From: Leucothrix pacifica
GTDB taxonomy: Bacteria > Pseudomonadota > Gammaproteobacteria > Thiotrichales > Thiotrichaceae
Assembly: GCF_003172875.1 (NCBI RefSeq)
Contig: NZ_QGKM01000069.1
Span: 1-64,000 of the forward strand
DNA: 64,000 nt
Direction of reading: 5' to 3'
The notes beneath the pieces are model-generated. The model did not search any database. It saw nothing but the letters and a program-made list of their open reading frames with translations, and was not told where the DNA came from. This document shows positions 49,172 to 55,160 of the stretch, one piece after another (the stretch's first letter is position 1; each line of letters starts with the position of its first letter). The translations under genes and the position numbers were made by a program.

Positions 49172-49636
49172 ATGTCTATTTCGCAATATAAAAAAGCAAT
49201 GTTCATGACTACACTCATGTCAGCGACGTTTGTATTTAATGTGGCTTGCGTACGTGCTGCCAGTTCGACCAGTAACGCAAATCACGTTGAAACCATGTCA
49301 TCGCAGCCAAAGCCAATCGCTGGGAGAAATCGTCGTCGTAGTGATGTTCACCAGCCTTCTATGTCTTATCCCAGAGCAAAAACAGACTATCTGAATGTGT
49401 CGATTGGCACTAGTAAGCTTCGTATAAATGTATTGGCTAATGATAGTGGCCTGAACCTGCGGTTAAGTGGTGTGAATAATCGTTCGGCCAAAGGAGGGAG
49501 GGTGTATGTCAAAAATAATAAAATCTTATATATCCCACCAAAAGGTTACGAGGGACGCGATAGTTTTTGGTACACAGTTATCGACCGGAGTGGACGACGT
49601 CATTCAGCTAAAGTCATAGTCTGTATTTGCTCGTAA
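49172..49636 (+). CDS. Secreted single Ig-like domain protein
   Basis: 154 residues from the ATG at 49172, after AAGGAATTTGTT. Signal peptide to about residue 30 (VRAASS). A linker rich in Arg/Ser precedes one Ig-like (cadherin-like, tandem-95 style) domain at about 70-150: INVLANDSGLNLRLSGVNN, KGGRVYVKNNKILYIPPKGY and DSFWYTVIDRSGRRHSAKVI. The C-terminus VCICS holds two cysteines. The domain is a close relative of the repeats in the next gene (KGGR and FWY shared), so the two likely came from one ancestor. Function unknown; a secreted or surface subunit is inferred. Confidence 0.72.
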   Translation: MSISQYKKAMFMTTLMSATFVFNVACVRAASSTSNANHVETMSSQPKPIAGRNRRRSDVHQPSMSYPRAKTDYLNVSIGTSKLRINVLANDSGLNLRLSGVNNRSAKGGRVYVKNNKILYIPPKGYEGRDSFWYTVIDRSGRRHSAKVIVCICS

Positions 49637-49848
49637 GGATGAACGTATGAAATGAACGGTAGTGATATGGTGATGATCCGATATGCGTAGTGTAAAAAGC
49701 CGATAAGTGGAAGTAATCGATCGTCGGTCAGTTGAGATAATAGGACTATTAGTGCGTGTAACTAATAATCGTGGTCCCGACAAAGGATCGTCAGGATATT
49801 AACCAATGGTGGGTGTCTGGCTCACCAGGTTGTAATAGGAAAAACAAT

Positions 49849-51645
49849 ATGACCTCCCCAATAAGAATCAAGTCACACTCCCGCTTCAAACGTCCTCTTA
49901 TCGCATGCTCGTTGATGGTGCTTTCTGCTCAGGCCACTGCTGCTCCAACAGCGAACCCTGATGCTTACTCGGTCGCTCCCGGCCAGAGTATCACCATTAC
50001 GCCATTAGATAACGATTTAGGTAATGGGTTGTTTATCGAAGCGGTAGATCAGCCAGCTCCTTTTGGTACGGGTACAACGACTTTTACTTCTAACTCAATC
50101 ACTTACACCGCACCAGCTGGTTTTACCAGTACGGAATTCTGGTACGGTATTAAAGACGCTAACGGCGACATCACCAGTGCGCCCATCACCGTCACAGCTG
50201 CTGGTTCACTTGAGGTGCCTCAGGCATATGCTGATTCTGCAAGTACCACAAAAGGTCAGCCAGTAACTGTAGATGTTCTCGCAAATGATACCGGTACAGG
50301 TCTTTTCATCGAAGTGGTTGATCAGCCCGCACCATATGGTACCGGTTCTTCTGCCATTGTGAACAATAAAGTTGTTTACACGCCGCCTGCAGGCTTTGTT
50401 GGTACGACTAGTTTTTACTACGGTATCAAAAATGCTGATGGTCTAATTACCAGTGCTGAGCTTACGATTACCGTCTCTGAGCCAACCGTATCATCACCAT
50501 GGCCAACTGCTGGCCAGGACAGAGCAAGCACAAGTCCGGGTGAGTTCATTGTTATTGATCCATTATGGAACGATACCGGAGATGATTTACGGGTAACAGA
50601 CGTTAATGCAATAACGACTCAAGGTAGCTCAGTAAAAATCCAGAACAATAAACTAACGTATACGCCTGCTAGCTGGGCTAAGGGCGAGGATGAGTTCTGG
50701 TATGTTATCACTGACAGTCAGGGCCGTACTAATGCAGCGCGCGTTATTGTCACGGTTGCACATGCTGTTGATATCGGAGCGTGGCCTACTGCGGGGGCTG
50801 ATAATTATGATATCGTCAAAAACTCAAGCGATAATGTACTGAATATTTTCAGTAACGATACTGGTTCAGGTCTTGAGTTTGAGAAGTTATATGACTGGAC
50901 TCAAAAAGGTGGAAGAACCTACGATAATGGTGGCTCAGTAAGATATACGCCTCCTGCTGGTTTCACCGGTGTTGATGAGTTCTGGTATGCCATGAAGGAT
51001 GTTCATGGTCGTACCAACGCTGCAAAAGTTACTTTGAATGTTACAGCACCTACCAGCGGCCCAAATAATGAGCCAGATGCAGTTGAAGATGCTTTGTCTG
51101 CCTTTATCAATGGCTCTGAAATGACATTGGATATTGTTTCAAATGATACTGATCCTGATGGCGATAGCTTGACAGTGATTGATGTACAGACCGCCCGCTA
51201 CGGTTCGGTTCGTCTGACTGCAGGTGGCGTTGTTCGTTATACACCACCAAGTACGCCTCAAAGTGATGCTTTCGAATACACCATTTCCGATGGAAATGGT
51301 GGAACTGCTTCTGCGGTTGCAACGATTAGTGTGACAGACCCTGATGATGATAATGATAGTTTTCCATCCATTACGGGTGAAGCGATTACAGTATCTCCGG
51401 GTGAAACGGTCGTAATCAGAGTGCTTGAGAATGACTTTGATGCCGATGGTGACACGTTGGTATTGGATCAGGTCACCAGTGGCTCACAAGGTTCAACGAC
51501 GAAAGTTGCCGACAATAACGGTGTTCTGACGTGGGTAGAATACACTGCCTTGCCTGATGCTTCTGGCACGGATGAGTTCTACTATGGTGTCCATGATGGT
51601 CGTGGTAAGAATGGTTCTGGTAAGGTGTCAATTACCTTCCGTTAA
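49849..51645 (+). CDS. Secreted protein of six tandem Ig-like repeats
   Basis: 598 residues from the ATG at 49849, chosen for AGGAAAAACAAT; an earlier in-frame start (49771) has no signal peptide. Signal peptide to about residue 32 (ATAAPTA). Six repeats of about 90-95 residues follow, each with a ND(T/L/F) turn, a Y-T-P-P-A-G-type turn and a D-E-F-W-Y-like strand. Repeats 1-4 lack a calcium loop; 5 and 6 have NDTDPDGDSL and NDFDADGDTL loops, the usual DxDGD type. No anchor, protease or enzyme domain is seen. Adhesin, matrix or filament role is inferred; no secretion tail recognised. Ends at a strong terminator. Confidence 0.78.
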   Translation: MTSPIRIKSHSRFKRPLIACSLMVLSAQATAAPTANPDAYSVAPGQSITITPLDNDLGNGLFIEAVDQPAPFGTGTTTFTSNSITYTAPAGFTSTEFWYGIKDANGDITSAPITVTAAGSLEVPQAYADSASTTKGQPVTVDVLANDTGTGLFIEVVDQPAPYGTGSSAIVNNKVVYTPPAGFVGTTSFYYGIKNADGLITSAELTITVSEPTVSSPWPTAGQDRASTSPGEFIVIDPLWNDTGDDLRVTDVNAITTQGSSVKIQNNKLTYTPASWAKGEDEFWYVITDSQGRTNAARVIVTVAHAVDIGAWPTAGADNYDIVKNSSDNVLNIFSNDTGSGLEFEKLYDWTQKGGRTYDNGGSVRYTPPAGFTGVDEFWYAMKDVHGRTNAAKVTLNVTAPTSGPNNEPDAVEDALSAFINGSEMTLDIVSNDTDPDGDSLTVIDVQTARYGSVRLTAGGVVRYTPPSTPQSDAFEYTISDGNGGTASAVATISVTDPDDDNDSFPSITGEAITVSPGETVVIRVLENDFDADGDTLVLDQVTSGSQGSTTKVADNNGVLTWVEYTALPDASGTDEFYYGVHDGRGKNGSGKVSITFR

Positions 51646-51668: not shown

Positions 51669-51715
51669 AAGGCCGCCAAGCTATCCGGATTCATTCGGGT
51701 AGAGGCGGCCTTTTT
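51669..51715 (+). terminator. Rho-independent terminator of the Ig-repeat gene
   Basis: AAGGCCGCC (51669-51677) pairs with GGCGGCCTT (51704-51712) followed by more T. An inner stem CTATCC.../GGGTAG strengthens it. Confidence 0.93.
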
Positions 51716-51799: not shown

Positions 51800-52375
51800 A
51801 TGAGTGGATCAGTAAGAAAAAAACGTAAACGTAGCTGGTTGCGATTGTTCACTGAATTATTAGTTATTGTCGGTATTGTCTTTGCCGCTCGCTTCTGGAT
51901 GCAGCGAGACTTGCCATCGGGGCAAGCGCCTAATTTCCAGGCGGTACTGATGGACGGCAAGGTTGTGAATCTTGAGGATTACAGGGGAGAACCGGTATTG
52001 CTGCACTTCTGGGCCAGCTGGTGCAAATTCTGCAAAATGACTGAAGGGTCTATTACGGGCGTACAGAAGGATTGGAATGTATTGAGTGTTGCATTTAAGT
52101 CCGGAGATAAAAAAGAAGTCGCTGAATACATAAAAGAAAGAGACCTCGACTCATGGAATGTCATTCCTGACAGCGACGGACGACTGGCTGAGTTGTTTGG
52201 TGTGCAGGCTGTACCGGCAAGTTACATCATCGATGGTAAAGGGGCGATCCGTGTCAAAGAGGTTGGTTTGACAACGGGGTGGGGGTTGAGAGTCAGACTC
52301 TGGTATGCAAAAAACGTGTCTAGTTTGTCGGCTCTGGTTGGTTTGAAATCTGCTGAAGCTGCTTCCGGTGGTTAA
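51800..52375 (+). CDS. Membrane-anchored thioredoxin-like protein (ScsD/TlpA type)
   Basis: 191 residues. A single N-terminal membrane helix (about 14-30, after a Lys/Arg-rich start) anchors a periplasmic thioredoxin domain. WASWCKFCKMTEG contains the CxxC redox pair (CKFC, about residues 75-78), and the cis-proline loop is GVQAVPASYIIDG. Reduced-disulfide exchange in the periplasm is expected; the partner is unknown. It is upstream of birA and partly overlaps the longest birA frame. Confidence 0.87.
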   Translation: MSGSVRKKRKRSWLRLFTELLVIVGIVFAARFWMQRDLPSGQAPNFQAVLMDGKVVNLEDYRGEPVLLHFWASWCKFCKMTEGSITGVQKDWNVLSVAFKSGDKKEVAEYIKERDLDSWNVIPDSDGRLAELFGVQAVPASYIIDGKGAIRVKEVGLTTGWGLRVRLWYAKNVSSLSALVGLKSAEAASGG

Positions 52376-54971: not shown

Positions 54972-55160
54972 AAGGATGAAAACCAAACCGCCGTTGTAGA
55001 CATTGACCTTGAACCAGCGGTTCAAGTGGGAACCACGAGAAAGGTATTAGGCGTACCGACAAGCGGTCATGCACACAGCCTTTCCACGCCTGTTCCCGGG
55101 TAAAGTAATTAGGCTCAAGGGATACCCGAATACTGACAAACAGCCCAGTAATCATCCGTT
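54972..55160 (-). ncRNA. ssrS: 6S RNA
   Basis: The minus strand of the 365-base gap between the CbiX and lexA genes reads like 6S RNA: CCCTTGAGCC near the 5' side, the GTGTGCATG stretch in the apical part, and CACTTGAACCGCTGGTTCAAGG then CAACGGCGG at the 3' side, matching the E. coli CCTGAGCC, GTGAGCATGC and CACCTTGAACCAAGGGTTCAAGG parts in the same order. Ends GGATGA (55152-55157) and TCATCC (54974-54979) pair to close the long hairpin. About 185 bases, as in E. coli. It binds the sigma-70 holoenzyme and represses transcription in stationary phase. Exact ends are estimated. Confidence 0.88.

Follow-up and report, generated by a model that had tools for sequence, protein, structure and literature searches.

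A basic single-domain Big_9 protein encoded beside an acidic six-domain Big_9 protein in Leucothrix pacifica

The window, a 64,000-nucleotide stretch of Leucothrix pacifica DNA (contig NZ_QGKM01000069.1), carries two adjacent genes whose products share one domain family and bear probable export signals. The short gene (49172..49636, plus strand) encodes 154 amino acids and the long gene (49849..51645, plus strand) encodes 598, and both open reading frames were confirmed. Pfam searches placed a single Big_9 domain (PF17963) at residues 67 to 150 of the short protein (E 8.8e-11, 43 bits) and six Big_9 stretches in the long protein (E 2.2e-79, 262.8 bits), both above the curated cut-off of 23.6 bits. 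The one-domain protein beside a six-repeat protein that a preliminary description had read from this DNA is therefore real, and by profile score all seven domains belong to the Big_9/tandem-95 proteins (PF17963, NF012211). Against NF012211 the long protein is a tandem-95 repeat protein (145.3 bits; curated cut-off of 90), and the short protein reached 27.2 bits, below the 90-bit cut-off, as expected for a single domain. The usual members of this group are long and acidic, whereas the short protein has a single domain, is basic, and ends in a C-x-C pair. The fold and domain are known, and the arrangement is new. In both proteins a basic stretch followed by a hydrophobic N-terminal segment is, by hydropathy and inspection, consistent with the Sec signal peptides previously proposed, and hydropathy revealed no later hydrophobic stretch of transmembrane strength. 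The claim that neither protein has an enzyme, anchor, or sorting domain was borne out by Pfam and profile searches, in which none was found. There was likewise no RTX match in either protein, and the Sec-like N termini are unlike those of type I secreted adhesins.

The short protein begins with a probable Sec signal peptide (approximately residues 1 to 29; 49172..49258, plus strand), as judged from sequence, hydropathy, and low pLDDT. Lipoprotein anchoring was considered and rejected, as C26 is not conserved in three orthologs and no lipobox precedes it. The linker that follows is predicted to be disordered and carries, at residues 48 to 56 (49313..49339, plus strand), the basic motif P-[IVL]-A-G-R-N-R-R-[RN], in which all positions but I49 and R56 are invariant among the four orthologs. 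The single Big_9 domain (49370..49621, plus strand), with a net charge of about +11, is predicted to be well folded (pLDDT 95 to 98); no DxDxDGD loop was found in it. At the C terminus, C151 and C153 form a C-x-C pair (49622..49630, plus strand), and its invariance in all four orthologs makes the VCICS tail singled out earlier a conserved feature. The AGRNRR motif, the C-x-C pair, and the strong basic charge are new features of the short protein. The orthologs (n = 4) are 41 to 53% identical, with dN of 0.21 to 0.44 and dS that is high or saturated, a degree of conservation beyond chance.

The predicted model of the short domain is an Ig/cadherin-like beta sandwich that matches cadherin, PKD, and RTX-adhesin domains with Z scores of 8 to 9.9, a resemblance of fold only; middling Z scores are common. 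The closest solved folds came from two RTX adhesins, FrhA and MpAFP (Z 9.9 to 9.5), in each case the domain next to the peptide-binding one. The D domain of gp13 of phage Milano also has the general fold of the short domain (Z 9.7), and gp13, a collar protein of the Agrobacterium phages Milano and 7-7-1, shows a weak sequence match to repeat 4 of the long protein (E 0.01). However, gp13 is a structural protein of phages and has a further wall domain, and its likeness to the short domain is one of fold only. A PDB sequence search returned weak matches only, to phage collar proteins and an RTX protein. In PHROGs the short protein had no match and the long protein one weak match, and thus no phage origin is indicated.

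The six Big_9 repeats of the acidic long protein, delimited by profile, lie on the plus strand at 49942..50196 (repeat 1), 50218..50472 (repeat 2, 54% identical to repeat 1), 50503..50754 (repeat 3), 50785..51039 (repeat 4), 51064..51327 (repeat 5), and 51364..51636 (repeat 6). The preliminary description had the single domain and all six repeats sharing a set of motifs; sharing was observed, but KGGR occurs in repeat 4 only, Y-T-P-P in repeats 2, 4, and 5, and F-W-Y in repeats 1, 3, and 4. Direct reading agreed that DxDxDGD loops are limited to the last two repeats, as DTDPDGDS in repeat 5 (51145-51168) and DFDADGD in repeat 6 (51433-51453). The repeat 6 loop is kept in relatives, and that of repeat 5 is degraded in G004, G001, and G005. 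On these loop sequences, the last two domains probably bind calcium, and a calcium-stiffened end of the long protein is plausible. The mature long protein contains no cysteine, and its counterpart in G002 has five repeats, repeat 1 being missing. For the complete long protein, AlphaFold gave a model with a pTM of 0.26, so that only domain-level matches, and not the arrangement of the domains, are meaningful.

Searches with the short protein found full-length homologs in three other genomes only, G002 (53% identity), G004, and G006, all of the same genus, and a scan of GTDB genomes, which reaches close relatives only, returned homologs in the same three assemblies alone. In all four genomes the gene order is ileS (divergent), short gene, long gene, and thioredoxin gene, with birA next where the contig reaches; the G004 locus is split over two contigs, with the break within the repeats. 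The adjacency and order of the short and long genes are kept in four of the five genus genomes with the locus, the spacing between them is 209 to 217 bp in all four, and no short gene without a long gene was seen in the genomes searched. The fifth genome, G003, is complete (one near-complete chromosome) and retains ileS, an intact long gene, the thioredoxin gene, and birA; an intact short gene is absent. Between ileS and the long gene, on the correct strand and in the correct place, lies a remnant (L075, 9655-9800) that corresponds to about 30 C-terminal residues of the short protein, contains two stop codons, and has its aligned end 203 bp upstream of the long gene. When the remnant was tested from DNA, none of 400 dinucleotide shuffles reached its score. 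The presence of this stop-ridden remnant at the expected place indicates that the short gene was lost in G003. A thioredoxin tree, in which G004, which has the short gene, falls outside G003 with modest support (0.73), also fits loss. Because the long and thioredoxin genes were kept when the short gene was lost, neither needs it, and the short protein is, judging from these genomes, a dispensable accessory.

Homologs of the long protein (54 to 55% identity) are also present in G001 and G005, at a different locus that lacks the short gene; both assemblies are partial (56 to 64% complete), and the other genes missing from them carry no information. The paired system of the preliminary description consequently stands as adjacency in four of five genomes and falls as obligate pairing, given the G003 remnant and the lone long homologs of G001 and G005. 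That description had held that independent occurrence of the homologs, or a short gene lacking homologs, would argue against a pair. Long genes do occur without an intact short gene, and the short gene does have homologs, always accompanied by a long gene.

The mature short proteins of the four orthologs have net charges of +14, +14, +17, and +10, that of the window being +14. The locus-linked mature long proteins have net charges of -45 (G000), -50 (G002), -56 (G006), and -44 (G003), and the long proteins of G001 and G005 are at -15 and -45. The short domain is the most basic among the Big_9 domains examined; the 129 other Big_9 domains of the genus have a mean charge of -5.6 and a maximum of +4. 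Acidic Big_9 proteins form the majority in the genus, so charge does not mark the long protein out as the partner. An origin of the short gene from a duplicated repeat of the long gene was rejected, as in the domain tree, whose deeper nodes are weak, the short domains group together (support 0.987) and apart from the long-protein repeats.

The intergenic stretch upstream of the long gene (49637..49772, plus strand) contains an ACGGT block and a GATAAT block and is a probable promoter of the long gene. It is conserved in all seven genomes, whether or not an intact short gene is there. It is followed by the 5' leader of the long gene (49773..49848, plus strand), which folds into two predicted hairpins in all five ileS-locus genomes. 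Hairpin 2 ends 15 to 21 nucleotides upstream of the start codon in each of the five, and its stem is kept via base pairs that differ between species (compensatory changes), as seen in single-sequence folds with z scores of -1.3 to -2.5 each. RNAalifold, run on an automatic alignment, recovered only hairpin 1, because the letters of hairpin 2 differ too much to align. No known RNA family matched the leader in an Rfam search of the region, and the GGAT-GTCA motif of hairpin 1 was missing from other Big_9 genes, bar one chance-like partial match. The ompA gene is known for an mRNA-stabilizing leader, and by analogy the two-hairpin leader is possibly of this kind. Downstream of the long gene, an intrinsic terminator (AAGGCCGCC...GGCGGCCTTTTT; 51669..51715, plus strand), consisting of a hairpin and then a T run, separates it from the thioredoxin gene; hairpins followed by T runs occur at the same place in all five genus genomes with the locus. 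With its own upstream region, leader, and terminator, the long gene looks like its own transcription unit.

The downstream gene (51800..52375, plus strand) encodes a TlpA/ResA-like membrane-anchored thioredoxin, which is a family-wide neighbor of Big_9 proteins. Orthologs of 40 to 61% identity were found in genera g3, g4, g5, and g6, each located 8 to 315 bp downstream of a Big_9 protein gene on the same strand, with further neighbors that differ from those in Leucothrix. Adjacency of Big_9 and thioredoxin genes thus extends over five genera (g1, g3, g4, g5, and g6), and the family-wide pairing is that of Big_9 protein and thioredoxin and does not involve the short gene. Thiothrix-like genomes (g2) have the thioredoxin without a Big_9 neighbor. 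In g3 to g6, those Big_9 partners that were scanned and retain their N-terminal part consist of an OmpA domain and then one to nine Big_9 domains (the partner in G020 is cut at a contig end), and the partners outside g1 carry cysteines in a Big_9 domain. These OmpA-Big_9 proteins share with the Leucothrix long protein the Big_9 repeats and the position and strand relative to the orthologous thioredoxin; however, they contain cysteines and, in those that include the region, an OmpA domain, and the Leucothrix protein has neither. In G003, no cysteine is left in either protein, so the thioredoxin there cannot serve their cysteines.

Some further features accompany these loci. Divergent from the OmpA-Big_9 gene of the thioredoxin loci in other genera (L135-L143, L152) is, where the contig reaches, a gene for a conserved small hydrophobic protein ending AARRDxxxGG. 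The g2 genomes have a second, paralogous module in which a Big_9 protein precedes a secreted TlpA-like protein that has a pair of cysteines close to the C terminus, for example CVSGFC or CTGNLC (L138, L140, L142, L144, L146, L148, L149, L150). The one Big_9 protein of this module that was scanned, in L144, has TSP3 repeats and an IPTL-CTERM tail.

The genome to which the window belongs contains 68 Big_9 domain matches, and their spread over many contigs marks the domain as a building block used throughout the lineage. Proteins that carry it include galactose-oxidase/GlxA-like copper oxidases, copper amine oxidases, a CotH kinase protein, a GDSL lipase, and OmpA proteins. In L082, L083, L084, L087, L088, and L092, Big_9 domains, often as triplets, are fused to copper oxidases, the CotH kinase protein, and the GDSL lipase; judged by domain content, the Big_9-fused copper oxidases are a lineage-wide exported set with Ig tails. 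An OmpA protein of 1553 amino acids with approximately eleven Big_9 repeats is encoded in L079 (3734-8395), and its G003 counterpart, with approximately ten, in L098 (5345-9778). In the domain tree, repeats 5 and 6 of the long protein group with the repeats of these two OmpA proteins. Another Big_9 gene (L080, 4257-5318, and the upstream frame) is apparently split by a TAA codon into frames of 965 and 353 amino acids and is either a pseudogene or two genes. Several Big_9 paralogs of the genus have C-terminal sorting-like tails. The genome also encodes GspD, the secretin of a T2SS, and a rhombosortase, so that the two proteins could leave by type II secretion, a route taken by Sec-dependent surface proteins.

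Two published systems resemble parts of this locus. The Rap proteins (RapA2, RapD) of Rhizobium leguminosarum are secreted cadherin-like lectins that bind acidic exopolysaccharide, and RapD multimerizes with calcium (PMC9298526). The likeness lies in their being small, secreted, unanchored proteins with one or two cadherin-like domains. However, Rap proteins leave the cell by type I secretion and depend on calcium, whereas the Leucothrix proteins have Sec signals and the short protein has a domain without DxDxDGD and a C-x-C pair. BapP of Pseudoalteromonas tunicata, a marine biofilm bacterium, is a large calcium-dependent adhesin with a Sec signal and Big_9 repeats (PMC12153261). It differs in having a beta-propeller, Calx-beta repeats, and an adjoining putative T1SS; neither such domains nor such a system were found here.

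To our knowledge, many bacteria display Big_9 repeat proteins on their surface, and little is known of how free, unanchored ones are held or cross-linked. We propose, with a probability of roughly 0.35, that the two proteins belong to one Ig-domain surface system in which the long protein would be an acidic rod of the matrix or envelope and the short protein a cationic, disulfide-forming accessory. As an unanchored string of six domains exported, we infer, beyond the cell, the long protein could, on the analogy of the Rap proteins and of Big_9 adhesins such as BapP, be a multivalent spacer or a lectin-like component of the envelope or extracellular matrix. The short protein may dock by charge on acidic partners, either the long rod or acidic polysaccharide, and may be fixed there, or dimerized, via disulfides of its C-x-C pair. 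The adjacent membrane thioredoxin may maintain these cysteines in the proper state; against this, a terminator parts its gene from the long gene, and G003 keeps the thioredoxin without them. Together, a basic one-domain companion with an invariant C-x-C pair and a thioredoxin linked to Big_9 proteins across genera would offer a specific hypothesis about the part that redox and charge play in these matrices.

Nearly as likely as this acidic rod with a basic accessory is that the short protein acts alone, as an exported cationic Ig domain that would bind DNA, lipopolysaccharide, or acidic polysaccharide from algae or from the cell itself, its adjacency to the long gene reflecting family clustering. 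Its dispensability in G003, the separate expression signals of the long gene, the standing of the short domains as a clade apart from the long repeats, and the strong basic charge with a flexible basic arm all accord with such a role, whereas the constant company of the long gene in the genomes searched and the 209- to 217-bp spacing kept in four of them speak for a connection. The same conserved order and spacing would suit an obligate two-subunit polymer or cap, in which many short subunits or one long one would build a surface structure, and C-x-C pairs could link the subunits, as the collar of phage Milano is built of disulfide-linked rings (PMC10491603). Such a structure is nevertheless improbable, since in G003 the long gene is intact beside the short-gene remnant and two partial genomes carry a long homolog alone. 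The polymerizing or capping logic put forward in the preliminary description found no backing either in the searched features, as sorting, pilin, and donor-strand features are absent, or in descent, as no recent repeat duplication lies behind the short domain.

The site of action bears on a less probable alternative, namely, that both proteins are envelope components that remain in the periplasm, where the Big_9 repeats would form a stalk and meet the thioredoxin; the OmpA-Big_9 proteins at the thioredoxin locus of other genera may be of this kind. Both proteins have Sec signals only, and no signal of a known type for export across the outer membrane; the thioredoxin, with a membrane segment at its N terminus, would lie on the periplasmic side; and the homologous locus proteins carry peptidoglycan-binding OmpA domains. 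In contrast, the sorting-like tails of Big_9 paralogs, the rhombosortase, and the T2SS point outward. The decay of the short gene in G003 could also mean that it is an evolutionary by-product, a detached and functionless repeat en route to decay, but invariant motifs, dN far below the saturated dS, and an unusual charge are kept in four divergent genomes, and we regard this account as very improbable. The proposal of an acidic rod with a cationic accessory can be carried further, to a fiber whose state is set by redox: basic clips would sit along the acidic rod and be locked by the C-x-C disulfide under the control of the thioredoxin family. We consider this extension a long shot; if it were true, a filamentous marine bacterium would have a cell-surface matrix whose stiffness varies with redox state.

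Beyond these genes, the window also contains, as its only Rfam match, a 6S RNA at 54976-55154 on the minus strand (RF00013, 90.8 bits).
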